Positions 32,212 through 55,346 of a stretch of DNA of 64,000 nucleotides are shown one piece after another. Each line of letters opens with the position of its first letter. Position 1 is the stretch's first letter. Source of the DNA: Nostoc sp. S13. GTDB lineage: Bacteria > Cyanobacteriota > Cyanobacteriia > Cyanobacteriales > Nostocaceae. Under the pieces are notes generated by a model. The model was not told the origin of the DNA, ran no database searches, and saw only the letters and a list, made by a program, of their open reading frames with translations. The stretch covers positions 1 through 64,000 of the forward strand of contig NZ_JAQYWQ010000020.1 in the NCBI RefSeq assembly GCF_029379315.1. Reading direction: 5' to 3'. The translations under genes and the position numbers were made by a program.

Positions 32212-32238
32212 GTCTTTCTGCCAAAAGTGGATGCTCCC

Positions 32239-32246
32239 GGTTTTCT
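32239..32246. repeat. Right target-site duplication of the ISKra4 element
   Basis: Second copy of GGTTTTCT, immediately after the right inverted repeat. Read on the minus strand it encodes the last complete codons (AAA ACC) of the uninterrupted TIR gene 5' part. Confidence 0.85.
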
Positions 32247-33514: not shown

Positions 33515-36301
33515 ATGATATATAAACCCCCTCAACAAAAGCTGTTGAGATGGATTGCATTGTTCCTAATTGGAACATTTCTGCAATTGTTGTTCTACAT
33601 CCCGACACCAGTTTTATCCCAATCCAGTAGCTGTAGCACTCTTACTGCTCCTCTCACCGCTGAGGAACAAACTTATGCTCACGCTGCTTGGCAGTATTTT
33701 GTGAAAAATTATCAGCCAGCAACGGGATTTACCAACTCTACCGGGGGTTATCCTTCTGGTACACTCTGGGATATGGGTAACTACCTGATGGCATTGAATG
33801 CTGCACGCTGGTTAAATCTTACTGACCAAGCAGACTTTGATTCCCGCCTCAATAAGTTTTTGACGACTCTCAGCAGCTTGAAGTTATTTGAAGATACCTT
33901 GCCCAATAAAGTCTATAATGCAGCCACCGCACAGATGGTTGATTATGGTAATAATCCGCTTGAGCGGGGTATTGGTTGGTCTGCTTTGGATGTCGGGCGA
34001 ATACTGGCTGCGTTTGATGTCATCCGTACCTGTCATCCTCAATATAATGATTGGCTCAAAGGAATTGTAGCGAAATGGCAAGTAGCGCGATCGCTCAAAG
34101 ATGGACAACTTTTTGGCGCTACTGTTCTCCCAGACAACAAAACGTTACTGGTGCAAGAAGGACGACTCGGCTACGAAGAATACGGCGCTAGAGGCTATGG
34201 ACTTTGGGGTTTCTCTGCACCCAAGGCTATTTCTTTAGAACCATTTAAGCTGGTCGAAATTAATGGTGTGCAAATTCCCGTTGATACCCGTGACTTTAAA
34301 AGCACCAATGCTAATAATTATGTTGTGAGTGAGTCTTATATCCTTGATGGGATTGAATTTGGCTTGCAAGGTGAGTTAGCTGATTTTGCTGCCAGGGTTT
34401 TAGATGTGCAAAAACGGCGTTATGATACCACAGGCCAGTTGACTGCGGTAACAGAAGATAATATTGACCAAACGCCTTATTTTCTTTACAACACCGTCTA
34501 CGCCAACGGTGCAACCTGGGCAACTATTACCGATGCCAATCAACCTTATCCACAGTTTCGCAGCATCAGTACAAAAGCAGCTTTTGGCTGGCGCTATCTT
34601 TTTCCAGATAATGCCTATGCCCAAAAAGTTTTTGATGCAGTCAAGGATCTCCGCAGTCCTGATGATAGCGGTTACTATGCTGGTATCTATGAAGAATCAA
34701 AACAACCCAACAAAGCTTTGACAGGTAATACTAATGGGTTAATTTTAGAGATTTTATACTACAAAGCTAAGGGAAATCACCCTTTAATTGCTTCCACTTC
34801 TGTAAGTGTGTCTACTGGTAAGCCCAGTGAAAATGCTTCTTCGACAACACCTCCAAATTCTACTGTCACACCTCCGATCGCAATCCCTGCGGACACTTCT
34901 AATAAAGTCATAGAAGTGACCATTGCACCTATTCCACCAGTGGATAATCCTGAATCATCATTTAACCTGAAACTAGATCGATCACTGACGGTTATTGAAC
35001 GACGTTATGCGGAGGCGGCTTGGGGATACTTTCAAGCAAATTATCACTCCCAGAGTGGGCTGATCGACGATCGCAGTGATTTCAAAGGCGCAACTCTCTG
35101 GGGATTGGGAGATTATCTGGCAGCACTCCATGCAGTGCGATCGCTCGATATAATTACCCCGAAAGAATTTGACCAGCGCACCCGACATCTTTTAGCAGCC
35201 TTGACAAAGTTACCGTTATTTGCAACAGAGTTGCCGAGTCGGGGTTACGATACGCGATCGCTCCAACCAGTAGATTATGGTGGAAATCCAGTTCCAGAAG
35301 GAAACGGCTGGTCAGCTTTAGATTTAGGCAGGATACTCGCAGCGCTTTACAACTTAAAAACTTGTCATCCAGAATATACGGCTGCCGTAGATAAAATTGT
35401 GCTGGATTGGTCATACTTGCGTGTGGTGCGCGAAGGTATTCTCTCCAGTGCTACAACCGCTAAAGATCAAGATGGGCGAGTTATTACCCATGTAAACCCT
35501 GAAACCCGTTTGGGTTATGAGGAATATGCTGCTCGTGCTTTTCAATTATGGGGATTTAATGTTGAGCATTCTGCTGTTGGCGGTGAATATGAAACTGCCT
35601 TAGTAGAGGGAGTGAAGGTCCCAGTCCAACGCCGTCGCAGGAATACTAACTCCAAAAACCAATACACAGTTAGCAATCCTTTCTTACTCTATGCACTGGA
35701 GTTTGGACTAGATCCACAAATGCGATCGCTCTTTGAGCCAATTTTTCAGGCGCAAGCTGAACGTTACCGTCGCACCGGCATCCTCACAGCCTCAGCTACC
35801 ACTTTGATTGATCGTAAACCTTACACCGTTCATAGCTCAATTAGTGAGTCTTGGGTGGCTTTAGGAGACGATGGTAAATCTGTACCAAAGGGGCGATTGG
35901 TAAGTACAGCAGTAGCTTTTGCCTATCATGCCTTGCTTCCAGAAAACAAGTACAGTCAAGAGTTACTGCAAGGAACGACTGACTTATATAATCCATTAGT
36001 TGGATTTTATGAGGGCTTCTATGAAACTACGGGTAAAACGGCAATTGGTTTCACCAGCAGCACCAACAGTATGATTTTGCAATCCTTGCTATCCGAAGTG
36101 ACGAATCGACAACCCCTAATTCGTCCGACTACCACCATGAAATCTCCTTGGTGGCAAGAAGTTAGTAAGGGAAATTCTGGGCGAGGTTTACCCAACACTG
36201 CTACACAACGAACCAAGTTAATTTCTGATAGTTCTGGAAGTTACTGGGTTTCAGATAGCGAAAAAACTACGTTAGGAAGTAGTACAAAAGTTACAAATTA
36301 A
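33515..36301 (+). CDS. Exported protein with two DUF3131 domains
   Basis: A 928-residue protein with an N-terminal signal/anchor (about residues 11-36). Two homologous DUF3131 domains follow, about 45-430 and 490-875. Shared landmarks occur in each: YAHAAWQYFVKNY / YAEAAWGYFQANY, TLWDMGNYLMAL / TLWGLGDYLAAL, GWSALDVGRILAA / GWSALDLGRILAA, and RLGYEEYGARGYGLWGF / RLGYEEYAARAFQLWGF. The linker (about 430-490) is Pro/Thr/Ser-rich. DUF3131 is an alpha/alpha-barrel-like fold of unknown function that often accompanies glycan genes, so a periplasmic glycan-binding or glycan-cleaving role is likely. It is the first gene of the 33.5-41.9 kb polysaccharide locus. Confidence 0.85.
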   Translation: MIYKPPQQKLLRWIALFLIGTFLQLLFYIPTPVLSQSSSCSTLTAPLTAEEQTYAHAAWQYFVKNYQPATGFTNSTGGYPSGTLWDMGNYLMALNAARWLNLTDQADFDSRLNKFLTTLSSLKLFEDTLPNKVYNAATAQMVDYGNNPLERGIGWSALDVGRILAAFDVIRTCHPQYNDWLKGIVAKWQVARSLKDGQLFGATVLPDNKTLLVQEGRLGYEEYGARGYGLWGFSAPKAISLEPFKLVEINGVQIPVDTRDFKSTNANNYVVSESYILDGIEFGLQGELADFAARVLDVQKRRYDTTGQLTAVTEDNIDQTPYFLYNTVYANGATWATITDANQPYPQFRSISTKAAFGWRYLFPDNAYAQKVFDAVKDLRSPDDSGYYAGIYEESKQPNKALTGNTNGLILEILYYKAKGNHPLIASTSVSVSTGKPSENASSTTPPNSTVTPPIAIPADTSNKVIEVTIAPIPPVDNPESSFNLKLDRSLTVIERRYAEAAWGYFQANYHSQSGLIDDRSDFKGATLWGLGDYLAALHAVRSLDIITPKEFDQRTRHLLAALTKLPLFATELPSRGYDTRSLQPVDYGGNPVPEGNGWSALDLGRILAALYNLKTCHPEYTAAVDKIVLDWSYLRVVREGILSSATTAKDQDGRVITHVNPETRLGYEEYAARAFQLWGFNVEHSAVGGEYETALVEGVKVPVQRRRRNTNSKNQYTVSNPFLLYALEFGLDPQMRSLFEPIFQAQAERYRRTGILTASATTLIDRKPYTVHSSISESWVALGDDGKSVPKGRLVSTAVAFAYHALLPENKYSQELLQGTTDLYNPLVGFYEGFYETTGKTAIGFTSSTNSMILQSLLSEVTNRQPLIRPTTTMKSPWWQEVSKGNSGRGLPNTATQRTKLISDSSGSYWVSDSEKTTLGSSTKVTN

Positions 36302-36541
36302 AGAAGAATTCAGAAGTCAGAATTCACCATCAAAGCCGGACTCGTTGGCGGAGCCTCTGGTAGAGTTGAGGCTGCGCTATCCGCCAGTCGTAGAGAATAC
36401 ACGAATTGTACTCTGATTTCTGACTCCTGAATTCTGTTTTGTTATTAATCAGTTCTTTTTGGGAATACTTGTACATGATGCGGTAACTTTTACGAGCAAC
36501 ATGCATTTCGATTCAAAATCCCTGTTTATTCTTTCAAATCT
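36302..36541. repeat. Inverted repeat block between the DUF3131 and GH26-like genes
   Basis: GAATTCAGAAGTCAGAATTCA at 36306-36326 pairs imperfectly with TCTGATTTCTGACTCCTGAATTCTG near 36413-36437. Between them is a palindromic repeat of the GTTGGCGGAGCC/TAGAGTTGAGGCTGCGC type. The final 100 bp are unremarkable and hold the upstream region of the GH26-like gene. Confidence 0.65.
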
Positions 36542-37600
36542 ATGAACAAGGTACGGCTGGCGCTGATGATGCTAATTTTACTAGGAAGCATCCTTGTGAG
36601 TAAAAATCTCATGGCGGTTGCTGATGCCTCAAGGCAACTCGAAAACCGTAAAGGAAACCAAATTCGCAACCAAACAGCTTTCGGTATCCCTGTACTACTA
36701 GGACTGTACACTCCAGATTACATCGGAAATCAAAGTACAATTGACAGCCAATTGCGTCAAGTTGATCAATGGACTGGTAAGCGCCATTCTATTGCGGGAT
36801 TTTTCTTTGATATCGAAGACTCGAATCCTGCTTACAACATCCCAGTTTCCCTAGAACAACTGAAGCACAATGGATACACAGCCTTTATTAATCTCAAATC
36901 CACTCATTCAGCAGCGCAGATTGCTAGGGGAGACATAGATAGTTCTCTGCAAAAAGTGGCAAAAGCCTATGCTAAATGGGCAAATCAAGGCGAGGGTCGT
37001 ATTGCGTTTATCGCTCCGTTGCAAGAGATGAACATTGCTGGAGAAGCATACAGCAAAGACCCGCAGAACTTCAAGTTAGCTTATCAACGTATCCAAAAGA
37101 TATTTAAAGAGACTGGTGTATCTTCACAAGCAATCCGTTGGGTATTTGCGCCTAATGGTTGGAGTGAAAACAATGAACATCGCTTTGAAAACTACTATCC
37201 TGGCGACAAGTGGGTAGATATCGTTGCCTTTAGTTCGTACAACTGGGGCTATTGTAGTAATTCTTCTTGGAAGCACTGGAATAGCCCAAAAGAAGTTTTT
37301 GAACCATATATTAAGCGGATGAAGGTTATGGCTGGTAGTAAGCCGATTTTCATCGCTCAAACAGCTAGTACGAGTAATACCCAAAATGGTTTACAAAGAA
37401 GTACTAAAGACCAATGGTTACGAGACTCTTACACTCAGCTACCTGGGATGGGTGTAAGAGCCATCCTTTACTTCAATATTAATAAGGAATGTGATTGGGC
37501 AATTAACAGTAATAGCGGCAAATCTGCTGGTTATAAAGACGCTGTAAATAATCCGGATTTCGGCTATTTATCCCCTGCTGAGTTGGCAAATAAAATATAA
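36542..37600 (+). CDS. GH26-like (beta-mannanase-type) glycoside hydrolase, one catalytic residue replaced
   Basis: A 352-residue protein with an N-terminal signal peptide (about residues 1-27). It has the TIM-barrel layout of GH26-like proteins: GLYTPDY at the first strand, IAFIAPLQEMN with the expected acid/base Glu at residue 162, RWVFAPNGWSE, and VDIVAFSSYNWGY. At the strand where the nucleophile Glu is expected (IAETAS-like), the protein reads IAQTAS, with Gln at 273. If the alignment is right the enzyme would be impaired and might act as a glycan-binding protein. It ends one base before the ATG of the next gene, so translation is probably coupled. Bacterial relatives act on surface glycans. 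Confidence 0.8.
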   Translation: MNKVRLALMMLILLGSILVSKNLMAVADASRQLENRKGNQIRNQTAFGIPVLLGLYTPDYIGNQSTIDSQLRQVDQWTGKRHSIAGFFFDIEDSNPAYNIPVSLEQLKHNGYTAFINLKSTHSAAQIARGDIDSSLQKVAKAYAKWANQGEGRIAFIAPLQEMNIAGEAYSKDPQNFKLAYQRIQKIFKETGVSSQAIRWVFAPNGWSENNEHRFENYYPGDKWVDIVAFSSYNWGYCSNSSWKHWNSPKEVFEPYIKRMKVMAGSKPIFIAQTASTSNTQNGLQRSTKDQWLRDSYTQLPGMGVRAILYFNINKECDWAINSNSGKSAGYKDAVNNPDFGYLSPAELANKI

Positions 37601-39061
37601 ATGGCAACAACCGTTATTAAAAGTATGATTTTGCAATCAGTTTTGTACGCAACGACAAATCAACAACTCCTACTTTGTCCGAGTACGGCGACGTGGCAAT
37701 GCTTTCCTACCTCATCTATGATCATTGCTGCCGCTAATAGCTTTAACCCTGATGTCAAAACACCACCGTCACAAACCGTTCCAGAACCTACTGCTCCCAC
37801 AGTCACGCCACTACCGCTAAAACCAACAGCTACGCCAGAAAAACCTGCTACTTCTTCGCCAATAGTTCATTTACCACAATTGACCGAAGAAGCGGATCAA
37901 ATTGCCGCTGAGCGGGCTTGGAAATATTTTGAACGTAATTGGAATCCCCAAACAGGTTTAATAAATTCGGCAGACAACTTGCCCTGGACAACTTGGTGGG
38001 ATCAGGGTAGCGCCTTATTAGGAATTCATGCGGCTCGCCAGTTAGGGTTATTGCCGCAAGATATGTTTCAACAGAGGATGAACAATTTACTACAAACCTT
38101 AGAAAAACTGCCGCTACCTGCAACTGGTTTACCCAACAAAGCTTATAGCACCCGTACTGCCGAAATGCGCCAACTCAATGACACCCCCGATCCCAAGGGT
38201 ACAAGTGGTTGGTCAGTGCTAGATATGGCGCGATTTTTATTAGGATTGCATGTTATGCGATCGCATTATCCAGAATATAGCGATCGGATTAATCGCATCG
38301 TCGCTGGCTGGAATCTATCGAAACTTGTCAAAGATGGTTGGTTAAATGGTGCTATCCCCAGAGCCGGCAAACTTCTCGAAGTCCAGGAAGGGCGATTAGG
38401 CTACGAGCAATACGCTGCTCACAGTCTAAAGCTGTGGAACATTCGAGCTACTAATGCTCTCTCCAATCCACCAGTAAAGACGGTTAAGGTTGATGGTGTT
38501 ACTCTGCAAATCGATCAACGGAATTTAAAAAACTCTGGAGCTACTAACTATCTGACGAATGATCCTTATCTGCTTTGGGGTTTAGAAATGGGTTGGAATG
38601 ATGCTGTCAAACCTCAAGTGCAAAATCTTTTGAAAGTGCAACTACAACGGTTTAAGCGTACTGGAATTTTAACTGCTATAAATGAAGATTCCTTGGATCG
38701 TCCCCCCTACTTTCTGTATTACAGCGTCTACGCCAATGGTGAAGCTTGGCAAGCCGTTAACACTAGCGGAAAAGCCTATCCCCAATTGCGGTTTGTCAGT
38801 ACGAAAGCGGCATTTTCTTGGTTTGCTCTCATGCCAGATGAGGCTTACACGAAAATGCTACGAAACTTTGTTCAAAATTTATCAGATAAAAATCGCGGCT
38901 ATCTTTCAGGACGATACGAAAATTCCAAACTCGGTGTTAATGCTTCACTTGATGTTAATACCAATGCGATCGTTTTAGAAAGTCTGCTTTATCAAGCCAG
39001 AGGTAGACATCCACTGGTGCTTGAATCCAGGAGCCAACAACCAGGAATCAAAAGAGAATAA
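37601..39061 (+). CDS. Single-domain DUF3131 protein with a relic N-terminus
   Basis: A 486-residue protein starting directly after the GH26-like stop. Residues about 95-480 are a DUF3131 domain closely related to those at 33515-36301 (AAERAWKYFERNW, GWSVLDMARFLLGL, RLGYEQYAAHSLKLWNI, STKAAFSWFALMPD). The N-terminus has no convincing signal peptide. Instead residues 7-27 (SMILQSVLYATTNQQLLLCPS) match the very end of a DUF3131 domain in the first gene (SMILQSLLSEVTNRQPLIRPT), followed by a Pro/Thr-rich linker like that between the two domains there. It thus looks like the second half of a former two-domain protein. How it is exported without a signal is unclear. Confidence 0.85.
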   Translation: MATTVIKSMILQSVLYATTNQQLLLCPSTATWQCFPTSSMIIAAANSFNPDVKTPPSQTVPEPTAPTVTPLPLKPTATPEKPATSSPIVHLPQLTEEADQIAAERAWKYFERNWNPQTGLINSADNLPWTTWWDQGSALLGIHAARQLGLLPQDMFQQRMNNLLQTLEKLPLPATGLPNKAYSTRTAEMRQLNDTPDPKGTSGWSVLDMARFLLGLHVMRSHYPEYSDRINRIVAGWNLSKLVKDGWLNGAIPRAGKLLEVQEGRLGYEQYAAHSLKLWNIRATNALSNPPVKTVKVDGVTLQIDQRNLKNSGATNYLTNDPYLLWGLEMGWNDAVKPQVQNLLKVQLQRFKRTGILTAINEDSLDRPPYFLYYSVYANGEAWQAVNTSGKAYPQLRFVSTKAAFSWFALMPDEAYTKMLRNFVQNLSDKNRGYLSGRYENSKLGVNASLDVNTNAIVLESLLYQARGRHPLVLESRSQQPGIKRE

Positions 39062-39150
39062 TGCCTATAAAATATGTGTTTTGAGCTTTTTCAATGTTAG
39101 TTAATTTTGCCACATTGCACTAATGTTTTAGATTAATTACTGGTACTAAG

Positions 39151-41163
39151 ATGACTTCAATTTCTATTAGCGATAATTCCTCAAACTTTTCCGGCAACAG
39201 TCGTTCAGCACTCAAAAAAAGAACGCTGTTATTTCGCTATTTGGCAGAAATAAATTTAATTTTTGGGATCTGGTATTTGCAATGGCGCATTACCCATTCC
39301 ATCAATTTTGATGCGCTCTGGATCTCGATTCCTTTGCTGATAGCGGAAATTTATAGTTATTTCGGCGGACTGATGTTTGTAATTGGGTTATGGCGTCCTT
39401 TAGTCCGACAGATTAAGTCTATCGACCAGATGACCCCGCTTCTACCCAGATCAGACTGGCCAACAGTAGATGTGTTTGTAACATGCTACAACGAACCACC
39501 AGAAATTGTCGAAGAAACTGCCAAAGCTGCTCTGGTAATGGATTATCCGCCAACAAAGTTACGGGTTTTTGTGCTGGATGATGGCAACTCGGCTGCTATG
39601 CGAGCGATGACAGAAAGATTGTGTATTGAGGATTTGCAGTCACCAAAACTACAGCTAGAGGCGGAGCGGATTGATGCAGAACACTCTTATTTGTTGGACC
39701 GTTTGAAGCAACTGGAAAATCTGACACCTAATACTCAAGCCGCAGAACAATGGCTGCAAGCATCATCATCATCAGAACCAGTTACCGAATTTGTGCAAAG
39801 TCTGCGATCGCTTATACTTTGGTTATCTCCGGCTGACCAAAGTATAAGCGATTCTCCTGTAAAGACGCTACGCGATCGCTTAATTACCGAACGCAAAGCC
39901 TTAAAAGAAGCTATTCGCAAGAAAGAACTGGAACTAGTTGAACTTGCTCGTTTTCGCTACATTGCTCGTCCCAAACAATCTGGTGTAGCCCACCACGCTA
40001 AAGCGGGTAATCTCAATTACGCGATTTTTTCTGGAGAAACTTTAGGACAGTTTATTCTTACCCTAGATGCTGACCATATTCCCAAACCACAATTTCTCAA
40101 GCGAGTTCTGCCTTATTTCTACACCTATAATCTTTTCACAGGTAAATATGAGCCGAATAAAATTGCTTTTGTACAGACACCCCAGGATTTTTACAACATT
40201 CCTCCAGGCGATCCGTTTGGGCATCAAGCACATTTATTTTATGGGCCACTCCAACAAGGTAAGGATGGCATGAATGCGGCTTTTTATACAGGAACAGATG
40301 CAATATTAAGGCGTGAGGCATTGATTAGTGTCGGACTACAATATTTTGCTGATGAGTATGCCAAAGATGAAAAAAGTTTAAATGAATTTCATTTAATTGG
40401 TGGGATATCGAGTAATAGTATTACGGAAGATATGAATACAGCCATGCGTCTACATGGTGCTGGATGGAAATCTATTTATCACCATGAACTTCTGGCAGAA
40501 GGTTTAGCGCCAGATGACCTGAGTTCTACTCTGAAACAGCGGCTACGCTGGGCACAAGGAACTATCCAAGTATTACTGAGAGAAAATCCACTAACAAAAC
40601 CAGGGCTAACCTTTTGGCAAAGATTGCACTATTTTAAAACTATGTATAGCTATTTCTCTGGTTTTGCTACTCTGGTTTTTATCTCTTGTCCAATCATCTA
40701 TTTTTTCACAGACATCGTTCCAGTTAAAACCTACGGCTCTGATTTTGCCCTCCACTTTTTTCCAGCTTTTATTATCAACCGCTTAACTTTTATTGTAGCG
40801 ACTTGGGGCATTCCAGCTAGAGAAATTTGGCGAGCTGAACAATATGCGATCGCTTTATTTCCCTTGTTTATTCAAGCCGTCTTAAGTGTGTTTTTTGGTA
40901 GCAAACTCAAATTCCAAGTAACACCTAAGCAGCGACAATCTGGAGTATATCTCCAACTAGTTTGGCCTCAACTACTTATCTTTTTGCTGACTATTTTAGG
41001 AATATTATGGAGCCTTTACCGCTTTGCAATTGGTAATCTAAATAATCCTTTGATTCACTTAATCAATGGTGCATGGGCTATCTATAACTTGTTACTTTTG
41101 TCGGCTATCATCCGTGCATCTGTTTGGCAGCCGCCGAAAGAGGACGCGATGATGGGGGGATGA
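39151..41163 (+). CDS. Cellulose-synthase-like family 2 glycosyltransferase
   Basis: A 670-residue inner-membrane processive glycosyltransferase. Two membrane segments near residues 30-90, then the GT2 domain: VDVFVTCYNEP, first Asp in VLDDGNS (near 144), TLDADHIPKP (near 303), SITEDMNTAM (near 430) and QRLRWAQGT (near 466), the D, DxD, TED and QxxRW set; four or five further membrane segments complete the channel. A linker insert of about 110 residues between the first Asp and the DxD includes a perfect palindrome (39807-39852). The C-terminal PilZ c-di-GMP domain of bacterial BcsA is absent. The polymer is unknown; the adjacent PIG-L deacetylase suggests an N-acetylated hexosamine polymer. 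Confidence 0.9.
   Translation: MTSISISDNSSNFSGNSRSALKKRTLLFRYLAEINLIFGIWYLQWRITHSINFDALWISIPLLIAEIYSYFGGLMFVIGLWRPLVRQIKSIDQMTPLLPRSDWPTVDVFVTCYNEPPEIVEETAKAALVMDYPPTKLRVFVLDDGNSAAMRAMTERLCIEDLQSPKLQLEAERIDAEHSYLLDRLKQLENLTPNTQAAEQWLQASSSSEPVTEFVQSLRSLILWLSPADQSISDSPVKTLRDRLITERKALKEAIRKKELELVELARFRYIARPKQSGVAHHAKAGNLNYAIFSGETLGQFILTLDADHIPKPQFLKRVLPYFYTYNLFTGKYEPNKIAFVQTPQDFYNIPPGDPFGHQAHLFYGPLQQGKDGMNAAFYTGTDAILRREALISVGLQYFADEYAKDEKSLNEFHLIGGISSNSITEDMNTAMRLHGAGWKSIYHHELLAEGLAPDDLSSTLKQRLRWAQGTIQVLLRENPLTKPGLTFWQRLHYFKTMYSYFSGFATLVFISCPIIYFFTDIVPVKTYGSDFALHFFPAFIINRLTFIVATWGIPAREIWRAEQYAIALFPLFIQAVLSVFFGSKLKFQVTPKQRQSGVYLQLVWPQLLIFLLTILGILWSLYRFAIGNLNNPLIHLINGAWAIYNLLLLSAIIRASVWQPPKEDAMMGG
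39807..39852. repeat. Perfect 16-bp inverted repeat inside the GT2 gene
   Basis: ATCGCTTATACTTTGG (39807-39822) and CCAAAGTATAAGCGAT (39837-39852) are exact reverse complements separated by 14 bp. The left arm overlaps a GCGATCGC site. It lies in the non-conserved linker between catalytic motifs and keeps the frame open. Confidence 0.92.
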
Positions 41164-41191
41164 CGAAGAACTCCTAACTTTTTATTCATAA

Positions 41192-41929
41192 ATGCAATCT
41201 AGAAAGAAAACAGCTATGAGCACTTATTCAGACTTAAAAAACTTTAGTCAGCGAACTGTCTTAACAATTTATGCTCACGCTGATGATGAAGTCCTACCTG
41301 CTGCTGGTACTCTCAGTCTGATGTCTAAGGCAGGATGGAATGTTCGTTGCTTAATTTTGACTGATGGTGGTCTTTCTAGTTCGCCTATTAAGGGTACACG
41401 TCATCAAGAAGCAGATGCAGCTGGTAAAATCATCGGTGCAACTTACGAGTTTCATGCACTTGAGGAGTGCAATTTCTCCACACAAGCAGTGATTAAAGTT
41501 GCTGAAGAATCTATTGGGCGTTGGCAACCGGATCTGATTATTACTCATGCACCACAACCTGAAAAATATGGACATAGAGATCATGAAGTGTGTGCGATCG
41601 CAGTTTCTAATGTTGCTACCCGCAAAAACATACCCTTATGGTATTCAGCACCACCTGTTTTTTTGCGTGGTTTTGAACCAAACTTTTTTGTAGATATTAC
41701 CTCTGTAATTGAGGAAAAAGTCGCAGCTATTGGTTGTTATGAATCAGAGGCAAGCAAAGCATTTATGCAACTAGATGCAATACTTATTATCTCACGTTTT
41801 TGGGCACGAGAATTAGGTCAAAAAGATGGTTATTTTGAAGCTTTTGAGATTTCTCGACAATGGGTTGATGCTAGTTTCTTTACTGCAATAGCAAATAATA
41901 GTAATCACCAAGCAATAAAACAAAACTAA
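41192..41929 (+). CDS. PIG-L family (LmbE-like) deacetylase
   Basis: A 245-residue zinc-dependent N-deacetylase. The metal-binding motif near residue 29 reads AHADDEVLP (Ala replacing the usual Pro in AHPDDE; His and Asp retained), and the second metal ligand is in HAPQPEKYGHRDHEVC (HxDH) near residue 125. This family removes acetyl groups from GlcNAc-type sugars in small molecules and glycolipids. Just 29 bp after the GT2 gene on the same strand, it probably modifies the sugar precursor or product of that enzyme. There is no signal peptide, so it acts in the cytosol. A start at the ATG at 41216 (STYSDLKNFS) is equally likely. Confidence 0.87.
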   Translation: MQSRKKTAMSTYSDLKNFSQRTVLTIYAHADDEVLPAAGTLSLMSKAGWNVRCLILTDGGLSSSPIKGTRHQEADAAGKIIGATYEFHALEECNFSTQAVIKVAEESIGRWQPDLIITHAPQPEKYGHRDHEVCAIAVSNVATRKNIPLWYSAPPVFLRGFEPNFFVDITSVIEEKVAAIGCYESEASKAFMQLDAILIISRFWARELGQKDGYFEAFEISRQWVDASFFTAIANNSNHQAIKQN

Positions 41930-42028
41930 TTGCAGTAGTTTATTGCTATATCTATTGCGGTTTACATTAGATCAATGCCAAAATAGAAAGATATAGTTTT
42001 CAAGCCAAATAATCGGAAAATAAAAACC

Positions 42029-42355
42029 ATGAATTTGAGTGTAAAAGTACTAGAAATATCTGGGATTTTAGATGGGATTAGAGGTAATGAACTACGTCGT
42101 GAAGTTAGCAACGTTGTGGACAATGGAGCCGATATTTTGCTGCTTGATCTTAAAGAAGTAAAGTTTATTGATAGCTCTGGCTTAGGTGCTTTAGTCTCCG
42201 CAATGCAAATCGTACGAGCTGCTAATGGTAAACTTTTTGTCTGTTCGATCAGCGATCAAGTCAGAATGTTGTTTGAACTGACTAAAATGGATAGAATTTT
42301 TAAAACCTTTGCTGACCAGGATGAATTCAATCGTCAAGTATTGGCAACACAGTAA
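42029..42355 (+). CDS. STAS-domain anti-sigma-factor antagonist
   Basis: A 108-residue single STAS domain of the SpoIIAA/RsbV class. The phosphorylation loop FIDSSGLGALV is at residues 46-56; Ser49/Ser50 correspond to the serine phosphorylated by the partner kinase. The remaining strands and helices fit the fold length exactly. In partner switching the unphosphorylated protein captures the RsbW-type kinase and frees its other target. The matching phosphatase (42398-43588) and kinase (43727-44143) are the next two genes, giving a complete module. It is convergent with the phosphatase gene. Confidence 0.93.
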   Translation: MNLSVKVLEISGILDGIRGNELRREVSNVVDNGADILLLDLKEVKFIDSSGLGALVSAMQIVRAANGKLFVCSISDQVRMLFELTKMDRIFKTFADQDEFNRQVLATQ

Positions 42356-42397
42356 GCTGCTAAATAACACAAAAATCAATATGTACATTTGACTAAA

Positions 42398-43588
42398 CTA
42401 ACCAAACTTAACTTTTACTAAAGATAAGTCATCATCCAGATTGTCTTGAGCATTTAAAGTGTGAATCTTCGCTAATAGTTGATTTAGGTTACACGTATCT
42501 TTCAGGCTATATTCGGTTAGTAAGTCAATGAAAGCATCAATACCCCAAATTTGACCATCTGGCTGATTAATTTCATAAGTACCATCACTAAAGATATATA
42601 AAGTGCTGTTTTCTTCAATTTCAAAAACAGCATCCTCAAATTTGACTTCAGGTAAAAAGCCAATTGGTAAATCTAAAGAAGTTAGCTGTTTAACTTGAAT
42701 ACTGTTCGTAGAGGTATTAGATAACAGTAAAGCTGGTGGATGTCCAGCGTTGGCATAAATGAGTTGACGTTTAAGGGGGTGATAAACTCCATACCAGATT
42801 GTGAAGTATTTATCACCGTGCTTTCTCATTTGGAAGGCGTGATTTAGGGCTTTGAGGACTTCACTTGGTTCACAAAAGTTAGTGTTCGGTAGAGATTGCG
42901 ATCGCAAAACATTAAGTACAGATACAGATAGGAGGGCTGAACCCACCCCATGACCTGATACATCTAACAAATAAATTGCTAAATTATCCTCGTCAATCCA
43001 ATGATGATCGAAGCAATCACCCCCTAACTGTGCTGAGGGAATAAATAGACTTTCTGTAGTTACTGCTCCGACAAGCGGCGAGGGTAAAAGCGATCGCACA
43101 TAATCAGCTGCCTCAACCAATTCTGCTTCCAAAATTTGCTTTTGGGTTTGCAAATTCTGATTGAGTGTCTCCAAAGCTTGCTTTTGACTTTGTAAATCCT
43201 GATTCAGCTGGTGTAACCTTAATCCTGCTCTTACCCGTGCTTTCAATTCATTCATCTCTATTGGTTTAGAGATAAACTCATCCGCTCCAGCGTCAAGTCC
43301 CCTAACTCTATCTTCCTCTTCTCCTGGAGCCGCTCCCCTAGCCGTCAATAGAATAAAAAAAGTAGTTGCCAACTCTATATCTGCCCTAATTCGACGACAC
43401 ACTTCTAACCCATCTAGCTGGGACATCATCCAGTCACAGATAATCAGAGCAGGATGTAGTAATTGTGCTTGTGCAATTCCTTCCTGGCCATTGCTAGCTA
43501 CACTGGTATCATAACCCTGATTTTGGAGTGTTCTTTTCAGTACTGTTCGCACTATCGGGTCATCATCAATAACCAGAATTTTAAACAT
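42398..43588 (-). CDS. Response regulator with SpoIIE/PP2C phosphatase domain (RsbU-like)
   Basis: A 396-residue fusion. Residues 1-125 are a receiver (IDDD at 8-10, phosphoacceptor Asp52 in ICDWMMS, LLTARG, and the Lys in ISKPIEM); a coiled coil with a QNLQTQKQ heptad region spans about 130-165; residues about 180-395 are a PP2C-like SpoIIE domain with metal-binding Asp residues in GGDCFDHHW, DVSGHGVGSALL, YIFSDGTYE and DDDLSLVKV. It should dephosphorylate the STAS protein in response to phosphorelay input. Receiver-SpoIIE proteins of this type occur in cyanobacteria (for example the Slr1983-like group). Divergent from the kinase gene, 138 bp apart. Confidence 0.93.
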   Translation of the reverse strand: MFKILVIDDDPIVRTVLKRTLQNQGYDTSVASNGQEGIAQAQLLHPALIICDWMMSQLDGLEVCRRIRADIELATTFFILLTARGAAPGEEEDRVRGLDAGADEFISKPIEMNELKARVRAGLRLHQLNQDLQSQKQALETLNQNLQTQKQILEAELVEAADYVRSLLPSPLVGAVTTESLFIPSAQLGGDCFDHHWIDEDNLAIYLLDVSGHGVGSALLSVSVLNVLRSQSLPNTNFCEPSEVLKALNHAFQMRKHGDKYFTIWYGVYHPLKRQLIYANAGHPPALLLSNTSTNSIQVKQLTSLDLPIGFLPEVKFEDAVFEIEENSTLYIFSDGTYEINQPDGQIWGIDAFIDLLTEYSLKDTCNLNQLLAKIHTLNAQDNLDDDLSLVKVKFG

Positions 43589-43726
43589 AGATTACAGTTT
43601 ATTAAGTAAATAGTTGCTTTAATTTAAGTTATATGCAATTTAGTTGAGAATGTATAGTGAAAATACTCAAATTAAATAAATTAATTACCGAATATGATGA
43701 ACTCAAAATATTTTATTGGTTAAGAA

Positions 43727-44143
43727 GTGAAAAATAAAATTTATCTCAAAGTCAACACAGACCTAACAGCGTCGCCTCAAGTGTTGTCTTGGTTCGAGCA
43801 AATGAATCAACCACCTATTGCCGATAAAAAAATTTGGTGGCAATGTCAAACACTTTTGATGGAAGGCTTTACTAACATTGTTGAACATGCCCATAGAAAT
43901 TTACCCATTGAAACTCCGATTGAGATAGAAGCTGTGCGGTTAGATGAATACATAGAAATTCGGATTTGGTCTGAAGGTGAAGCCTTTGATTTAGAGCAGC
44001 AATTGCAACAAACGTCTGAATTTGAGGAGAATGAGCAAGAGCGCGGTCGTGGTTTAAAAATCATGTCCGCCATTGCTGACAAGTTGAGTTATGAGCCAAC
44101 AGTTGATAATCGTTACTGTTTATTTATTAGTAAATCTTATTAA
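43727..44143 (+). CDS. RsbW/SpoIIAB-like serine kinase (anti-sigma-type)
   Basis: A 138-residue single HATPase_c domain of the GHKL anti-sigma kinase class, starting at GTG (43727). The N-box reads MEGFTNIVEHAHRNLP (Glu and Asn present), the G1-like region IRIWSEGEAFD (Asp retained, first Gly replaced), and the G2 loop RGRGLKIM is intact. It should phosphorylate the STAS protein on its DSSG serine and bind a second partner, a sigma factor or another regulator. No sigma factor is encoded nearby, so the output is unknown. The stop is only 15 bp from the end of the convergent hybrid-kinase gene. Confidence 0.9.
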   Translation: MKNKIYLKVNTDLTASPQVLSWFEQMNQPPIADKKIWWQCQTLLMEGFTNIVEHAHRNLPIETPIEIEAVRLDEYIEIRIWSEGEAFDLEQQLQQTSEFEENEQERGRGLKIMSAIADKLSYEPTVDNRYCLFISKSY

Positions 44144-44157
44144 AATTACTGCAACAT

Positions 44158-46617
44158 TCACAATTCTGACTCCTGACTCCTGATTAAAAACTCTTGGATA
44201 CGTTTCACAAACTCTTCTAACTCTGAGATGAAGTTAGTACCACCTTGATGCTCTTGATTGTCAGCTAGTTGTTCTAATTTTTGTGCTGCCAGATGCATGG
44301 TTGTAGCTCCCATATTGGCACTAGCACCTTTAATTTGATGGGCTTGGAGCGTTAGTTGCTCAAAATCATGAGCTGTGATCGCTATTTTCATTACCTCTAG
44401 ACGAGGTTGAATATCTTCAACAAATATTTGCAGTAATTCAAATTCAAATTCTAGGTTGTTTTCCGAGATTTGATGCAAACGTTCCCAATCAATTGGGAGA
44501 TCAACTGAACCTACATGTGTTGTAGAAATTGTCTGCTCTGTGGCAGCTGTTTCTTTTACTTTGGATATCATACTTTCCCAATGCTCTAGCACCGCAGCCA
44601 ATTTTTCTTTCATTACTGGCTTGCTCAGATAGTCGTCCATTCCGGCATCTAGACACATTTGTTTGTCTTCTTTCATGGCATTAGCTGTCATCGCAATTAT
44701 TACAGGACGACGACCACTAGCAAAGCTGCTTTCTTGCCAACGATAAATTTCTTTTGTGGTTTCTAAACCGTCGAGAATCGGCATTTGGTAATCCATCAAA
44801 ATCAAATCGTAAGGAATTTTTTCTAATAGCTGCAACGCTTCTTGACCATTAACAGCGACATCAGCACTGTAGCCCAAGCTCTGGAGTTGCTTCAAAGCTA
44901 TTTTCTGATTCACTAGATTATCTTCAGTTAAGAGAATTCTTAATTTATGGGAATCAGGAGAATGATAATTAGCATTGTTATCGTAATTTTTCACTTCTGA
45001 ATTCTCTACTCCTGACCCTTCTCTACAAGACGCTGCGCGTAGCTTGCTTCCCCGTAAGGGTACGGCAAGCTCAGGGCACCTCTCCTGACTCCCCGACTCA
45101 TCTGGAATAACAGAAGCGGCAATCGTAAAGTAAAATGTACTACCTGCATTAAGTTCGCTTTCAACCCAAATTCTGCCACCCATTAACTCGCACAGTTGCT
45201 TGCAGATGGCAAGACCTAACCCAGTACCGCCATACTGTCGAGTCATCGAGGAGTTAACTTGACTGAAGGCTTTAAATAAACGTTCCAAGCGATCGCTTGG
45301 AATTCCAATGCCTGTATCTTTAACACTAAACTGAATTTCCTCAGTATTTGCAGCAGAGGAATGATTAATATCGCTATTCTTGCGGATTATAACTGAAATT
45401 TCTATGCTTCCAGTTTCGGTAAATTTAATAGCATTACTGAGTAGATTAATTAAGACTTGGCGCAGTCGGGTGATATCCCCCACAATCATAGTAGGAACTT
45501 TAGGAGTATCTAAAAATGTCAGTTTTAAACCTTTTTCTTGAGCTGTAGGCGCAAGTAAATAAAAAGCTTCATTAATGCAATTTCGCAAACTAAAAGGTTC
45601 CTCTTCTAGTTCTAAGTTGCCCGATTGTATTTTGGAGAAGTCAAGGAAATCGTTAATAATATTGAGTAAGGAATCTCCACTGGTGTAAATAATTTCAATA
45701 AAGTTTTTCTGTTCAACAGTCAATTCACTATCTAGTAACAAATTAGCTATACCAATTACTGATGAAATCGGAGTCCGAACCTCATGGCTAATCATCGCTA
45801 AAAATTCCTGTTTCGCAAGCTCTGCCTGCTTCCGTTCAGTTATGTCTCGCAAAATGTAAACATAACCTTGAAAATGTTCAACTTCTGTCTTCACTATTGA
45901 GGATGAAAAAGCTACGGGAATTTTTTTACCACTTTTGGTATAGCAAAAGGTTTCTACCTCTTTTTTTAAAGTATTTATATTTTGAGGCTGGAAAATATCA
46001 ATGCTTTCACCAATTATTGGCGGATAACTATTGACTTCTCTAATAATTTTTGTTATAGATTGACCTAGAATATCTACTTCGTCATATTCCAACAAAATTT
46101 GTGCGGCTAGATTTATTTTTTTTATCTTTCCTGATAGCGTTGTCACCAACAACGCGTCTGCCATTGATGTCACAATTTGGTCAATATATTCTTTACAAGC
46201 CTTTAAGTTACGTAGCAAAAGATTTGCTTCATTTGCACCTTGGAACAAAGATTGCTCAAGAACCATCCGTTCTGTCGAGTCTTCTACAAGAATGATTAGC
46301 GGATTGCTAGAAGAATTTTCTTGAATATTATTAGTAATCCGAATATCAATATACAAAGGAGAATCCGTATCTTGTGAGCGCATAATTCCTTTTAATTCAA
46401 AATTATCTTGCTCTCCCTGTCGAATTGCATCAAAAATATCTTCAAGTCCCTCTAATTCTGGAAATACAATCCGAGCATCCTGACCTGGCTTCACTTCATT
46501 AGGAATATCGGTAAAATGATTTAGTCCTAAAGACTTCTCCAGAATCTTGAAATTTTCATCAATTATCAAATATTCAATCCGACATACAGATAATAAGTTT
46601 GTCAAAAATAAGTTCAT
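44158..46617 (-). CDS. PAS hybrid histidine kinase with REC and HPt domains
   Basis: An 819-residue cytoplasmic kinase. Order: an N-terminal PAS-like region (about 1-115), a PAS domain (about 145-265, ending [11 protein letters not shown]), HisKA with phosphoacceptor His in [12 protein letters not shown] (near 280), an intact HATPase ([25 protein letters not shown]; about 390-510), a receiver (LLTEDN, Asp in LILMDYQMP; about 565-690) and an HPt domain (His in [13 protein letters not shown]; about 725-815). The linker before the receiver contains residues encoded by a dispersed repeat (45016-45081). Its receiver and HPt are nearly the same as those of the kinase at 50601-55346. The tail end may feed the receiver-phosphatase next door. 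Confidence 0.93.
45016..45081 (-). repeat. Dispersed palindromic repeat inserted in-frame in a kinase gene
   Basis: On the minus strand the segment reads GTGCCCTGAGCTTGCCGTACC, then CTTACGGGGAAGC, then AAGCTACGCGCAGCGTCT, then TGTAGAGAAGGG: the same element as the two copies at 7105-7246. It adds about 22 codons (around [18 protein letters not shown]) between the HATPase and receiver domains without breaking the frame. Confidence 0.9.
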
Positions 46618-47146: not shown

Positions 47147-47202
47147 AATATCCTCTGATCCGAATCATCGCTACTATAAACTTAAAATTGCTTGTTTATT
47201 TT

Positions 47203-50600: not shown

Positions 50601-53600
50601 TCAGATTTTGGCGTTACTATCTTTAGAAATCAAAAACTCTTGGATGCGTTCAACAAACTCTTCTAACTCTGAGATAAAGTTAGTAGTACCTCGACGTTCT
50701 TGGTTACGAGCAAATTGTTCTAGTTTTTCTGCTGCCAAGTGCATGGTTGTAGCTCCTATATTGGCACTAGCACCTTTAATTTGATGGGCTTGGAGCGCTA
50801 GTTCCTGAAAATCATGAGATGCGATCGCTATTTTAACTACCTCTAGACGAGGTTGAATATCTTCAACAAATATTTGCAGTAGTTCTAATTCAAATTCTGG
50901 GTTATTTTCCGAGATTTGATGCAAACGTTCCCAATCAATTAGGAGGTCAACTGAACCTGCATCTATGGTAGAAACTGTCTGCTCTGGGACAGCTGTTTCT
51001 TTTGCCCTGAATATCACACTTTTCCAACGCTCTAGCGCCGCAGCCAATTTTTCTTTAATTACTGGCTTACTCAGATAGTCGTCCATTCCGGCATCTAGAC
51101 ACATTTGTTGATCTTCTTTCATGGCATTAGCTGTCATTGCAATTACCACAGGGCGATGACTGCTAGCAAAGCTGCTTTCTTGCCAACGATGAATTTCTTT
51201 TGTGGTTTCTAAACCGTCGAGAACTGGCATTTGGCAATCCATCAGAATTAAATCGTAGGGAATTTTTTCCAATAACTGCAAAACTTCTTTGCCATTACCA
51301 GCGACATCAGCACTGTAACCCAGGCTTTGGAGTTGCTTCAAGGCAACTTTTTGATTCACCAGATTATCTTCAGCTAAGAGAATTCTAAAACTTCGGCTTC
51401 GCTCAGTTTTAGCAGTGAGCGTAGTCGAACTGCTAAGTTTGGGGGAGTCAGGAGAATAATCCTTGCTGTTGTTGTCGTAATTTTTCAGTTCTAACTCTTG
51501 AATTCTGACTTCTGACTTTTGACTCCTAAATTCTGACTCCTCTTGTTCCGGGTGCACTCCTAAAATAGTCATGATGGTATCGAGAAGTCGTGACGGCTTA
51601 ACAGGTTTGACCAAATAAGCCGCAAATCCGATTTTTAGCGCCCGTTGGATTTCATCCCGTTGATTAGTAGAGGTAAGTATAATCAAAGGTAGCCCAGCGA
51701 TCGCTGAATTTGCCTTAATTTGCTCTCCTAAAGTCATGCCATCTATTTCTGGCATCTGCATATCAATCAGAGCAATGTCATAGAGATTTTTTTGGTTGGC
51801 AGACTCCTGAATAACTTTCAGGGCAGTAGTAGCCGAAACAGCCTGATCCACCAGCATCCCCCAACGGGTAGCTTGATGATAGATGATTTTGCGATTAGTA
51901 GCATTATCATCTACTACTAACAAGCGGCGATTGAGCAAAAGTTGGCCTTCGCCTTGTGAGGAAATAGGGTAAAGTTGCTTGGCGAGAGTTACTTCAAACC
52001 AAAACTTAGATCCTTTCCCCAAACGACTTTCTACGCCAATTTTTCCCCCCATCAAGCTCACCAGTTGTTTGCAGATGGCTAATCCCAAACCTGTGCCACC
52101 ATATTTGCGGGTGGTGGAAGCATCTACTTGGGTAAATGGCGTAAAGAGTTTGCATTGGTCTTCAGGGGTAATGCCAAGACCGGTATCTGTGAGCGCAAAA
52201 TAAATGGTGGCTGTAGTAGAATTTTCTGAACGCAATTCGGCTCGTAGTACTACCTCTCCATTGCTGGTGAACTTGATCGCATTGGTGATCAAGTTCATGA
52301 GAATTTGCCGCAGGCGGCCAGCATCGCCTTGAAGGTGAGTGGGGACGTTGTTATAGATCAACGCTGCAATTTCTAATCCCTTTTTATGGGCTGAGGGAGC
52401 CAATAATTCCAACACCTCTTCCACAGAGCTAGATAAGTCAAAATCTAGAGTTTCTAGTGCCATTTCCCCAGCCTCAAGTTTGGACAAATCCAAAATTTCG
52501 TTGATCAGGCTTAAGAGAGCGTCTCCACTAATGCGAATTGTTTCGATAAAATCTCGTTGCTCCGAGTTGAGCGGAGTTTCTAACATTAAGCTTGTCATCC
52601 CCAACACAGCATTCATCGGAGTTCTGATTTCATGGCTCATGTTGGCCAAAAAAGCACTTTTGGTTTGAGAAGCTAATTCAGCTTGCTGACGGGCAATTTC
52701 GAGTTCTCGTCGCTGTTCAGTTTCGGCGTTTAACATTTGGGCTTGGGCTAAGGCAATACCAACTTGGTCAGCTATTTGCCGTAAAAGATGAGTTTCAAAG
52801 CTAGACCAGTGGCGGTAACTGCCACACTGATGGACAATCAGCAAACCGCAAAGTTCTTCTTTGACAAGAAGGGGTATGATTAAATTCGATTTGACTCCAA
52901 ATTCTTGCAGTAATTCCATTTGGCTTTTTTGGACTTCAACTATGTCCAAGTCACCAAGCGCCAGATTCTGTTTTTGACGGTATTGCTGTAGATAGTACTG
53001 CTCTATGTATTCTGCTTGAAAGTAAGCATTGGTGAGCTTTTTATCTTTGATTGCCAGCCAACTAGATATTACTGCCTCCACCACGGTGCTTCCAGATCCA
53101 TCTGCCAAAGGTTGATAAATCAAAACTCGATCGCTATGGAGAATTTTTTGTACCTCCGTAACAGTGATTTGGAAAATTTCTTTGATTTGCAAAGATTGAC
53201 GAATCTTCAGGGTGATTTCAGTAAATAGTTGCGATCGCAAATTTTGGCGTTTGAGTTCTTCTTCTGCCTGCTTGCGCTCAATAAACTGCCCTACCTGCTC
53301 ACTAATAGAATTCATGACTTTTGCCAAATCTGGGTCAGGTTGCTGGATCTGATGGCTAAAGCAGGTAATAACACCGAGGACTTTTTGACCACTACGGATC
53401 GGAAAACCGAAAGCTCCGTGCAGTTCTGCTTGAGCAGCGATTTGAGAGCGGACGAAATTCTGATCTTTAACAACATCAGCGATCCAAACAGGTTCAGCAC
53501 TAGCCCAGACACGACCAGGCAGCCCAATTCCTGGTGGAAAGGTGGTTTGCCGACTTAGGATGTCAAATTCTTGCATCTCAAAGGAGATTTTATACCATGA

Positions 53601-55346
53601 ATTTAGCAAACTTAGTAGATTTACTTGCTGATCTACCATCCAAAATTCACTTAAATCCCATCCCAAACTTTCGCAGATTCCTTGCATGATTTGGGGCATG
53701 GCTTCGTTGATTGTAGTTGACTCTGCTAAGATGCGCGTTGTAGAATACTCTGCTTTAAGATGCTGTTCAGCTCGTTTGCGTAAGCGAAGCTCTTCGTAGA
53801 CATCGCTGATGTCAATACCAGTGCCAATAATATATTCAACTTCGCCCTGATCGTCTTGCAAAAAAGTGTTAGCCCAGGCAATCAGCCGTCGATTGCCATC
53901 TTTAGTTACCCAATAGTTTTCGTATTCGTTGGGCGCTTCACTAAATCGCAACTCCTCAAAAACTGCTTTAACCCGCCCAATATCTTCTGGAAGTAGAAAC
54001 AAATTCCAGAAATGCCTTCCTCTCACCTCATCAAATGAGTAACCAGTTGTTTGTTCACAAGCTTGATTGAAGCGAATAATTTGCCCTTGTGTGTCAACAA
54101 CTATTACCAAAGTGCTGGCTGTATCAAGAACTGCTGAGATAAATTTGCGTTCTTTGCTCAGTGTCTCCTCTGTTAATTTACGCTGTTTTACCTGACGATA
54201 AATGAAGTAGTAGACTATGAAAAGAATCAGAAAATTTAGGACAATAGCGATCGCAAGTGTCAAAAGAGTATTGTCGGCACTAATTTTTGTGATTTTTAAC
54301 TGCTGCTGAAATTCTTCCGTCTCTTTGTTTTTCATCTCACGAATGATATTGCGGATATCACTCATTAAGTTATTTCTCTGATTTGTATTCATTACCTCCA
54401 GTGCAGCATCTAATCCTAAATTCTGGCGCAAGTCGATAGTTTTTTTCAGTTCGTTCAGCTTTACTGTGATCAGGGATTCAAGGGTATTGAGTTGACTCAG
54501 TTGCTGAGGATCATTTGCTGTTAATTTTCTTAACTGCTTAATTTCGGGAGCAAATTTGGCAATTGCTGTCTGATATGGTTTTAGATACGCATTCTGCCTA
54601 GTGAGTATATAACCGCGTTGTTCCGTTTCCGTATCTTTGATATTAGACAGCAGTTCTTGCAAGTTGTTGATTGTCAGTTGGGTGTTATGCAACTTTTTAT
54701 TAGTATTAATCAACACTCCCGTACTCTGATAGAAGAACGTGCCAATCAGGATTAAAATTGCCAACGCCAACCCAAATCCCGCAGCTACTCTTTTAAAAAA
54801 TTGTTTGCGTATTTTCTCTGTCTGTTTGCGTGTATCACTCGCCAATACGAAACTTGCTAAGTTGCGCCGCATTTCTAGTTGCTTGATTACCTGGCGACCT
54901 AGTATTCGTAATGCTTCAACTTGTTCTGGAGAGAGGTCTCTTGGTATATGGTCAACTACACAAAGAGTTCCTAGTGCATATCCTTCAGGGTTAATTAGCG
55001 GTACAGCAGCATAAAACCGAACATTCGCGTCAGAGGTGACAAATGGATTTGTCGCAAACCTTTCGTCTTCTGTGGCATTAGGCACAACAAAAACTTCAGG
55101 TTGCATAATAGTATGGGCGCAGAATGAGATATTTCGGGGTGTTTGTAGGGCATTCAAACCAACTTTTGACTTAAACCACTGGCGATCGCTATCAATTAAA
55201 CTGATTAAAGCAATAGGAGTTCCACAAATATATGAGGCTAAACGGGTGAGGTCGTCAAAGGCAGCTTCCGAAGGAGTATCAAGGATCTTATACTGCAAAA
55301 GAGATTGGATTCGCTGTATTTCGTTATCAGGTAATGGCGCTTTCAT
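50601..55346 (-). CDS. Very large multi-sensor hybrid histidine kinase
   Basis: A 1581-residue kinase. Order: GAF (about 1-170, [16 protein letters not shown]), membrane segment (about 190-208), CHASE3-type extracytoplasmic domain (about 215-360, with [12 protein letters not shown]), second membrane segment (about 365-388), PAS (about 400-520), GAF (about 540-695), GAF (about 715-880), HisKA (His in [10 protein letters not shown], near 915), intact HATPase ([24 protein letters not shown]), a first receiver ([15 protein letters not shown]), a second receiver (LLAEDN, LMDCQMP) and an HPt ([11 protein letters not shown]). The second receiver and HPt are near copies of those at 44158-46617. The inter-receiver linker is built from repeats (51390-51545). 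Confidence 0.95.
51390..51545 (-). repeat. Repeat-derived linker in the large hybrid kinase gene
   Basis: Two repeat types lie in frame between the receivers. A palindromic one (TCGGCTTCGCTCAG, then CAGTGAGCGTAGTCGAAC; about 51391-51437) encodes [15 protein letters not shown]. An STRR array (TTCTGACT units, about 51484-51545) encodes [19 protein letters not shown]. The frame is kept throughout. Confidence 0.8.

Follow-up and report, generated by a model that had tools for sequence, protein, structure and literature searches.

Gene content of the locus

We studied a 64,000-nucleotide stretch of DNA from Nostoc sp. S13 (positions 1 to 64,000 of contig NZ_JAQYWQ010000020.1; hereafter, the window), and in particular a locus at 33515-44143 that combines genes for a putative polysaccharide synthase and its accessory proteins with genes for a partner switch. 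Genes were assigned from predicted open reading frames (ORFs), their translations, and a Pfam scan, which bear out the eight genes listed by the original prediction from the sequence alone (Table 1). On the synthase side, there are two proteins with DUF3131 domains, a GH26-like protein, a BcsA-like glycosyltransferase of family 2 (GT2), and a PIG-L deacetylase. On the regulatory side, there are a STAS protein, a receiver-SpoIIE (Rec-SpoIIE) phosphatase, and an RsbW-like protein. The original prediction put all of these genes on one strand, which is incorrect: the gene for Rec-SpoIIE is on the minus strand, between the genes for STAS and RsbW on the plus strand. This orientation recurs in related loci.

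Table 1. Genes of the locus and of its downstream surroundings in the window
Feature	Position	Strand	Evidence and remarks
Protein with two DUF3131 domains, 928 amino acids	33515..36301	+	Translation, Pfam; N-terminal hydrophobic stretch by eye
GH26-like protein	36542..37600	+	Pfam, structure match, alignment; Q273 at the nucleophile site; accessory
Protein with one DUF3131 domain, 486 amino acids	37601..39061	+	Pfam, structure model; predicted helical barrel like GH144/GH162/GH189
BcsA-like GT2	39151..41163	+	Pfam; all motifs present, PilZ not matched, helices predicted in a ~100-residue insert between DDG and HHAKAGN
PIG-L/LmbE-type deacetylase	41192..41929	+	Pfam; optional gene, no export signal by eye
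STAS protein (RsbV-like)	42029..42355	+	Pfam; FIDSSGLG phospho-acceptor motif
Receiver-SpoIIE phosphatase (RsbU-like)	42398..43588	-	Pfam; convergent with STAS
RsbW-like HATPase_c_2 protein	43727..44143	+	Pfam; N-box and G2 retained; G1 Asp replaced by Ser
Hybrid histidine kinase, PAS-HisKA-HATPase-Rec-Hpt	44158..46617	-	Pfam; neighbor of RsbW in many Nostoc
CHASE3-PAS-GAF hybrid histidine kinase	50601..55346	-	Matches in 39/80 loci, many loci ending short of it
472-amino-acid protein, no Pfam match at 1e-5	55571..56989	-	Matches in 36/80 loci

The synthase genes are linked to a partner switch across cyanobacteria

We compared the best 80 of 118 related loci. For genes downstream of GT2, we considered the 71 of these 80 loci with at least 6.5 kb of sequence after the GT2 start, and for genes upstream, the 59 with at least 8 kb. 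(Several genomes are present twice in the alignment and linkage tables, once under a handle and once under a name, which means that there are fewer species than rows.) STAS was found in 65 of the 71 loci, SpoIIE in 61 (in the same inverted orientation), and RsbW in 59; all three were found in 59. Upstream of GT2, 58 of the 59 loci have matches to DUF3131. The other two genes are less regular, with PIG-L in 34 of 71 loci (there are also short remnants in L049, L057, and L060) and GH26 in 13 of 59. The linked loci range from Nostoc to Pseudanabaena and deep-branching metagenome-assembled genomes. Conserved linkage, which the original prediction requires, thus holds across cyanobacteria, and it recurs in Proteobacteria (below).

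General synteny does not explain this linkage, because the sequences upstream of the cluster are rarely common to two loci while STAS stays beside GT2. When we compared the flanks of the 58 of 80 loci in which 1.5 kb or more of DNA precedes the cluster, just 146 of 1653 pairs had any homologue in common (18/276 among close Nostoc, 81/561 among other loci, and 47/816 between both groups), while STAS adjoins GT2 in 54 of the same 58 loci.

The synthase and the switch also tend to be present together. Among 35 genomes from the same genus, 25 have an orthologue of GT2 and 28 have an orthologue of RsbW. RsbW is present in 25 of the 25 genomes that have GT2, vs. 3 of the 10 that do not (P = 1.8e-5, hypergeometric test, ignoring kinship and assembly gaps). 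The ten genomes without GT2 include two that are less than 90% complete and one with 7% contamination. In G001 and G006, the genes for STAS, SpoIIE, RsbW, and the histidine kinase are grouped together away from GT2 (on another contig in G001 and 1.2 Mb off in G006).

A few loci are unusual. In Nostoc sp. UHCC 0926 (L205), the whole set is on a 1-Mb plasmid, and the match to SpoIIE is divided into two parts with about 1.9 kb between them. In L137 and L138, the match to STAS is about 750 bases long and lies roughly 2.1-2.8 kb after the GT2 start; there might be two tandem STAS genes.

Similar gene sets in Proteobacteria

A search of plasmids with GT2 and DUF3131 led to one proteobacterial subfamily of GT2, at 18 places in 17 plasmid records. 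We analyzed 12 of those places, from Paracoccus (2), Pseudooceanicola, Rhodobacteraceae SC52, Pantoea (4), Chimaeribacter, Vibrio, and Sphingobium (2). In all 12 cases, a SpoIIE-type phosphatase, a STAS protein, and an RsbW-like ATPase are encoded within the region retrieved around GT2. (The phosphatases of L207, L208, and L216 are annotated otherwise and were verified as SpoIIE-type by BLAST.) The gene order and strands are unlike those in cyanobacteria, and in place of PIG-L and GH26, these sets have OpgC or another acyltransferase and sometimes GH16; OpgC adjoins six of the sets. The two Sphingobium sets lack DUF3131. A proteobacterial-type GT2 beside DUF3131 was also found in the same phylum as the window but outside its class (G208). 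In three ordinary bcsA loci, no partner-switch genes are annotated, a negative that is weakened by plasmid gene tables that are incomplete by their own description. Overall, it is well supported that the GT2/DUF3131 set is functionally coupled to the partner switch and that this coupling is conserved.

The synthase

As predicted, the window's GT2 has all of its motifs intact (DDG, DAD, TED, and QRLRW). In an alignment of 110 rows, TED and Q..RW are present in 108, and the remaining two rows are the same unusual fusion protein, from G040. The best matches of the window's GT2, both by sequence and by Foldseek, are BcsA chains. It scores 332.9 bits against the cellulose synthase model (the cut-off for the CelA equivalog is 699.1), 69.3 bits against PgaC (cut-off 422.3), and 24.7 bits against MdoH. 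No PilZ domain was found in the window's GT2 (P0004; E 0.01) or in four proteobacterial GT2s, and there were no BcsB, BcsC, or BcsZ proteins among the window proteins that were scanned, with the rest of the genome outside that search.

The original prediction proposed either a beta-glucan or a partly deacetylated amino-sugar polymer. A synthase-dependent machine still seems right, and a beta-glucan is the likely product. We rejected the amino-sugar polymer because of the model scores of GT2 and the patchy distribution of PIG-L.

The cyanobacterial GT2s have a long insert. The distance from DDG to KAGN is 138-150 residues in ten cyanobacterial GT2s, vs. 33 in all eight GT2s of the other type that were compared; for two BcsA-like proteins, it is 33 or 50. 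Apart from the G040 fusion, no insert in the 110-row alignment is longer than 149. A structure model of the window's GT2 places helices in the insert, which is just a hint given the low overall confidence (predicted local distance difference test, pLDDT, of 67.4). In a tree of GT2s, there were three strongly supported groups: cyanobacterial, proteobacterial with G208, and BcsA-like. The tree is unrooted and does not establish whether the DUF3131-linked GT2s are sisters.

In G040, an RsbW domain (HATPase_c_2) lies inside the insert of GT2. The fusion is a single open frame of 784 codons within a 76-kb contig; the gene for STAS begins 16 bases downstream, followed by SpoIIE on the opposite strand. 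No match to DUF3131 was found in that genome. The fused sequence hints at a physical complex that includes both RsbW and GT2.

In another genome (L029, from G002), the orthologue of GT2 has two in-frame TAG codons.

DUF3131, GH26-like, and PIG-L proteins

The two-domain DUF3131 protein is probably exported. The model of the single-domain protein (pLDDT 84.1) has an (alpha/alpha)6 fold. In Foldseek, its best match is a putative glucoamylase (4qt9, E = 3.7e-11), and the beta-1,2-glucanase CpSGL (5gzk) is matched at E = 8.0e-10; template modeling scores are about 0.5-0.6, with 10-15% identity in the top matches. A profile of DUF3131 also matches the GH189 domain (structure 8wy1) with E = 6.4e-4 over 92 positions. 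Across 29 DUF3131 sequences from both phyla, D208 and E329 are present in 29/29 and E263 in 25/29. For the SGL clan and GH189, catalytic glutamates have been named in the literature (including PMC12102758): E211 of CpSGL and E1356 of TiCGS. In both predicted fold and profile, then, DUF3131 resembles enzymes that act on beta-1,2-glucan.

DUF3131 domains vary in their arrangement. In Pseudanabaena (L132), a single frame of 1766 amino acids has three DUF3131 domains and a GH26-like region (GH26 was identified by BLAST, not by Pfam). By eye, the N-terminus of the window's single-domain protein (37601-37670) resembles the C-terminal tail of a DUF3131 domain, as though a split had occurred in a longer protein. 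Another stand-alone DUF3131 protein is encoded elsewhere in the genome (L002, G000:C177:26558-27652), and other Nostoc have singles of similar size.

The best match of the GH26-like protein to a solved structure is Endoglucanase H (2vi0), which we take to be Lic26A. This protein had been expected to trim the polymer, an activity that we rejected given the Gln at the nucleophile position. Among matches above 80 bits, the nucleophile Glu is replaced by Gln in all 21 of the 21 rows that cover the site, while Glu is retained in 2/2 separate paralogues. (Three genomes are counted twice, and we excluded a fragment from L122 that stops short of the nucleophile.) Because the nucleophile is lost in every row, the GH26-like protein is probably a non-hydrolytic pseudoenzyme that binds glucan. 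As for the PIG-L protein, its active-site motif appears intact by eye.

The partner switch

The STAS protein has the motif DSSGLG in the window, and SSGL is present throughout the aligned relatives (DSSGLS in L062 and L063; NSSGLG in G040). The phosphatase is a confident match to SpoIIE in Pfam (E = 1.8e-41), and its metal-binding Asp motifs can be seen by eye. The RsbW-like protein is less typical. Among matches above 60 bits in ORFs of less than 260 amino acids, the Asp of the G1 box is replaced in 76 of 82 rows (by Ser in 74, Cys in 1, and Gly in 1) and is present only in six deep-branching rows. In RsbW, this Asp is important for ATP binding. Two other RsbW-like proteins of the window's genome retain it, and by eye, the proteobacterial proteins vary. 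Going by these residues, the Nostoc protein may bind its partners without phosphorylating STAS.

A model for the locus, and its alternatives

In bacteria, cellulose synthases are chiefly known as effectors of cyclic diguanylate (c-di-GMP), and partner switches are chiefly known as controllers of sigma factors. The synthase and the switch described here are of these known kinds; what is new is their pairing and the proposed control. We consider it somewhat probable that the locus encodes a synthase-dependent machine for a surface beta-glucan and that this machine is under the control of the switch; we infer both the product and the direction of control. In our model, GT2 in the inner membrane would polymerize and extrude a beta-glucan, whose linkages could be 1,4, mixed 1,3/1,4, or 1,2. 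Outside the cytoplasm, the DUF3131 proteins would cut, transfer, or shape the glucan chain, and the GH26 pseudoenzyme, where present, would bind it. The histidine kinase would act on the Rec-SpoIIE phosphatase, which would dephosphorylate STAS, and unphosphorylated STAS would bind the RsbW-like protein, leading to altered activity of GT2. The switch would take the position that is held by c-di-GMP and PilZ in BcsA. We only tentatively suggest that the switch targets GT2 itself and not operon transcription; this falls a little short of an even chance. The full scenario, in which the membrane GT2 is bound by RsbW and freed by STAS, so that post-translational control of beta-glucan synthesis replaces c-di-GMP and PilZ across two phyla, and DUF3131 is a new family of glucan-processing enzymes, is slightly more speculative still.

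Several observations weigh against this model, which is built from sequences, structure models, and gene context. Linkage cannot tell direct control from transcriptional control. At least one switch gene is missing from 12 of the 71 loci; of these, L095 and L124 have matches to STAS and SpoIIE 8-12 kb away, and L128 has a weaker match. Three genomes retain the switch without GT2. In G016, there are full-length matches to STAS, SpoIIE, and RsbW beside remnants of PIG-L and DUF3131; in G022, the matches to the switch genes are nearly the same and adjoin a remnant of PIG-L, with no DUF3131; and in G033, the match to PIG-L reaches the end of the contig, so a gap in the assembly is possible. This pattern is consistent with the synthase genes having been lost before the switch, and the remnants in G016 and G022 speak for the model, but the switch could also have other targets. 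With no Asp in its G1 box, the Nostoc RsbW is possibly not an active kinase. The fusion was found in just 1 of the 386 genomes of a phylum-wide sample (with two candidates scored per genome), a search for its family returned only G040 itself, so that it is known from one assembly, and its GT2 part lacks the lysine of KAG, the aspartate of TED, and QxxRW, so as a synthase it is probably dead. We also considered whether RsbW generally docks at the helical insert, and rejected this because the insert is missing from eight GT2s of the proteobacterial type. The Vibrio set has no annotation and was judged by tblastn, with a weak match to RsbW (25%). Finally, relatives of DUF3131 (at about 25% identity) from Sulfitobacter and Mesorhizobium, two loci, have an adjacent glycosyltransferase and no STAS annotated nearby in the same incomplete gene tables.

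The strongest alternative is that the switch acts on transcription, with RsbW as an anti-sigma factor or with STAS working via another regulator, and that the glucan genes are one of its outputs. RsbU/V/W canonically control transcription via a sigma factor, and the three genomes that keep the switch without GT2 fit this explanation. Also, the related protein HmpV is suggested to work via an undefined effector. But no sigma factor was found among the window proteins that were scanned (which were not all of its ORFs), the link that is shared across phyla is with synthase genes, and in one case GT2 and RsbW are fused. We view transcriptional control as possible, if rather doubtful. It is unlikely, by a somewhat lower estimate, that the locus makes a beta-1,2-glucan, or one that resembles osmoregulated periplasmic glucans, with DUF3131 proteins as glucanases or transglycosylases of the SGL type. 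The predicted fold of DUF3131, its weak match to GH189, its invariant Glu and Asp, and the proximity of OpgC in Proteobacteria would all make sense if so. However, GT2 is far nearer to cellulose synthase than to MdoH, 1,3/1,4 linkages are what the GH16 genes and the Lic26A-like protein suggest (going by the usual specificities of these families), and the activity of DUF3131 is itself a prediction from models and sequence comparisons.

The other alternatives are much less plausible. For a partly deacetylated amino-sugar polymer, PIG-L would act as the deacetylase and GH26 would trim the product. PIG-L is encoded at the locus with what seems to be an intact active site, but it is absent from over half of the cyanobacterial loci and has no apparent export signal, the GH26-like proteins have lost their nucleophile, and the score of GT2 against PgaC is far below the cut-off. 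We consider this polymer very improbable. Even less credible is that the linkage is an inherited neighborhood without functional coupling. Adjacency by descent could occur among close Nostoc, but upstream flanks are seldom common to pairs of loci, the set recurs in different orders in Proteobacteria, and the switch genes relocated together in G001 and G006.

Comparison to known systems

The window's GT2 shares its fold and the D, DxD, TED, and QxxRW motifs with BcsA. Unlike BcsA, it has no match to PilZ, scores below the cut-off for the CelA equivalog, and has a helical insert; and unlike a bcs operon, the locus has a partner switch instead of the BcsB, BcsC, and BcsZ families, none of which were seen among the scanned neighbors.

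The switch has the same components (a phosphatase, a STAS protein, and an RsbW-type kinase) as HmpU/V/W from the hormogonia of Nostoc punctiforme, which is tied to motility and polysaccharide. By locus tags, hmpV (Npun_F5169) is apart from hmpU and hmpW (Npun_R5135/R5134), unlike the layout in the window. Furthermore, another contig of the window's genome (C92) encodes a second STAS protein with its own convergent Rec-SpoIIE as well as a separate SpoIIE-RsbW pair. These are likely candidates for the Hmp orthologues. Judging by the locus layout and the better candidates on C92, the window's switch is probably a paralogue and not HmpU/V/W itself, an identity that we rejected on this basis. A tail-to-tail pair of STAS and Rec-SpoIIE genes, laid out as in the window, is found at L157:4422-5885, which is likely the neighborhood of HmpV.

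In Vibrio fischeri, the phosphorylation state of the STAS protein SypA, along with SypE, governs polysaccharide-dependent biofilm formation. SypA is another STAS protein that is tied to the control of polysaccharide, but the passages considered describe no GT2-DUF3131 operon, and SypA is said to work on transcription, with unknown partners. The pairing of GT2 with a switch offers a candidate kind of effector for orphan STAS proteins such as HmpV and SypA.

DUF3131 shares its predicted fold with the SGL clan (GH144, GH162, and GH192-194) and with the cyclization domain of GH189. It differs from them in that identity is just 10-15% and that the DUF3131 proteins are probably exported and are encoded beside GT2. 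A 2025 paper on SGL families mentions neither DUF nor Pfam in its main text. The resemblance names a likely class of function for DUF3131.

A study of bacterial GT2 beta-glucan synthases (PMC6821405) describes a cyanobacteria-only clade of unknown function (clade 6). These are also cyanobacterial relatives of GT2, but the likeness is by description only, and that tree excluded sequences with insertions of more than 10 residues, so the window's type is perhaps missing from it.

According to the original prediction, no system with this gene set had been described. Indeed, our literature searches, in which Riley et al. 2018 (HmpU/V/W) figured only as a citation, found no functional description of it. 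However, accessory block 3b of Klebsiella pneumoniae (PMC12974863), which came from genome association, has a gene list that matches the proteobacterial set; the excerpt states no function for the block, and the likeness is from the gene list rather than from sequences. The locus points to an uncharacterized surface polymer in many cyanobacteria and, if this match holds, in Klebsiella.

Borders of the locus and neighboring genes

The conserved neighborhood extends beyond 44143 into the first hybrid histidine kinase, and it possibly reaches as far as 56989. In many Nostoc, this kinase is found beside RsbW with 70-80% identity. It has matches in 49 of the 80 loci, and in distant ones, identity is just ~38%, so those are perhaps other hybrid kinases. 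It is a possible input to the switch, and the CHASE3-PAS-GAF kinase is a possible second input.

Upstream, we tried twelve ORFs. Only two of them are inside the 10 kb that was compared (29390-29947 and 31960-32907), and these have matches in 0 of the 80 related loci; the other ten are mostly beyond that DNA, so their absence is little informative. The ORF at 31960-32907, directly upstream of the cluster, encodes a TIR-domain protein that is possibly related to defense. Between the two histidine kinases, at 46622-49404, are genes for a small GTPase of the Ras-like kind and for an OmpA/BON protein. Matches to this pair occur in 11 of the 30 near Nostoc loci, in none of the 34 middle loci, and in 1 of the 16 distant loci.

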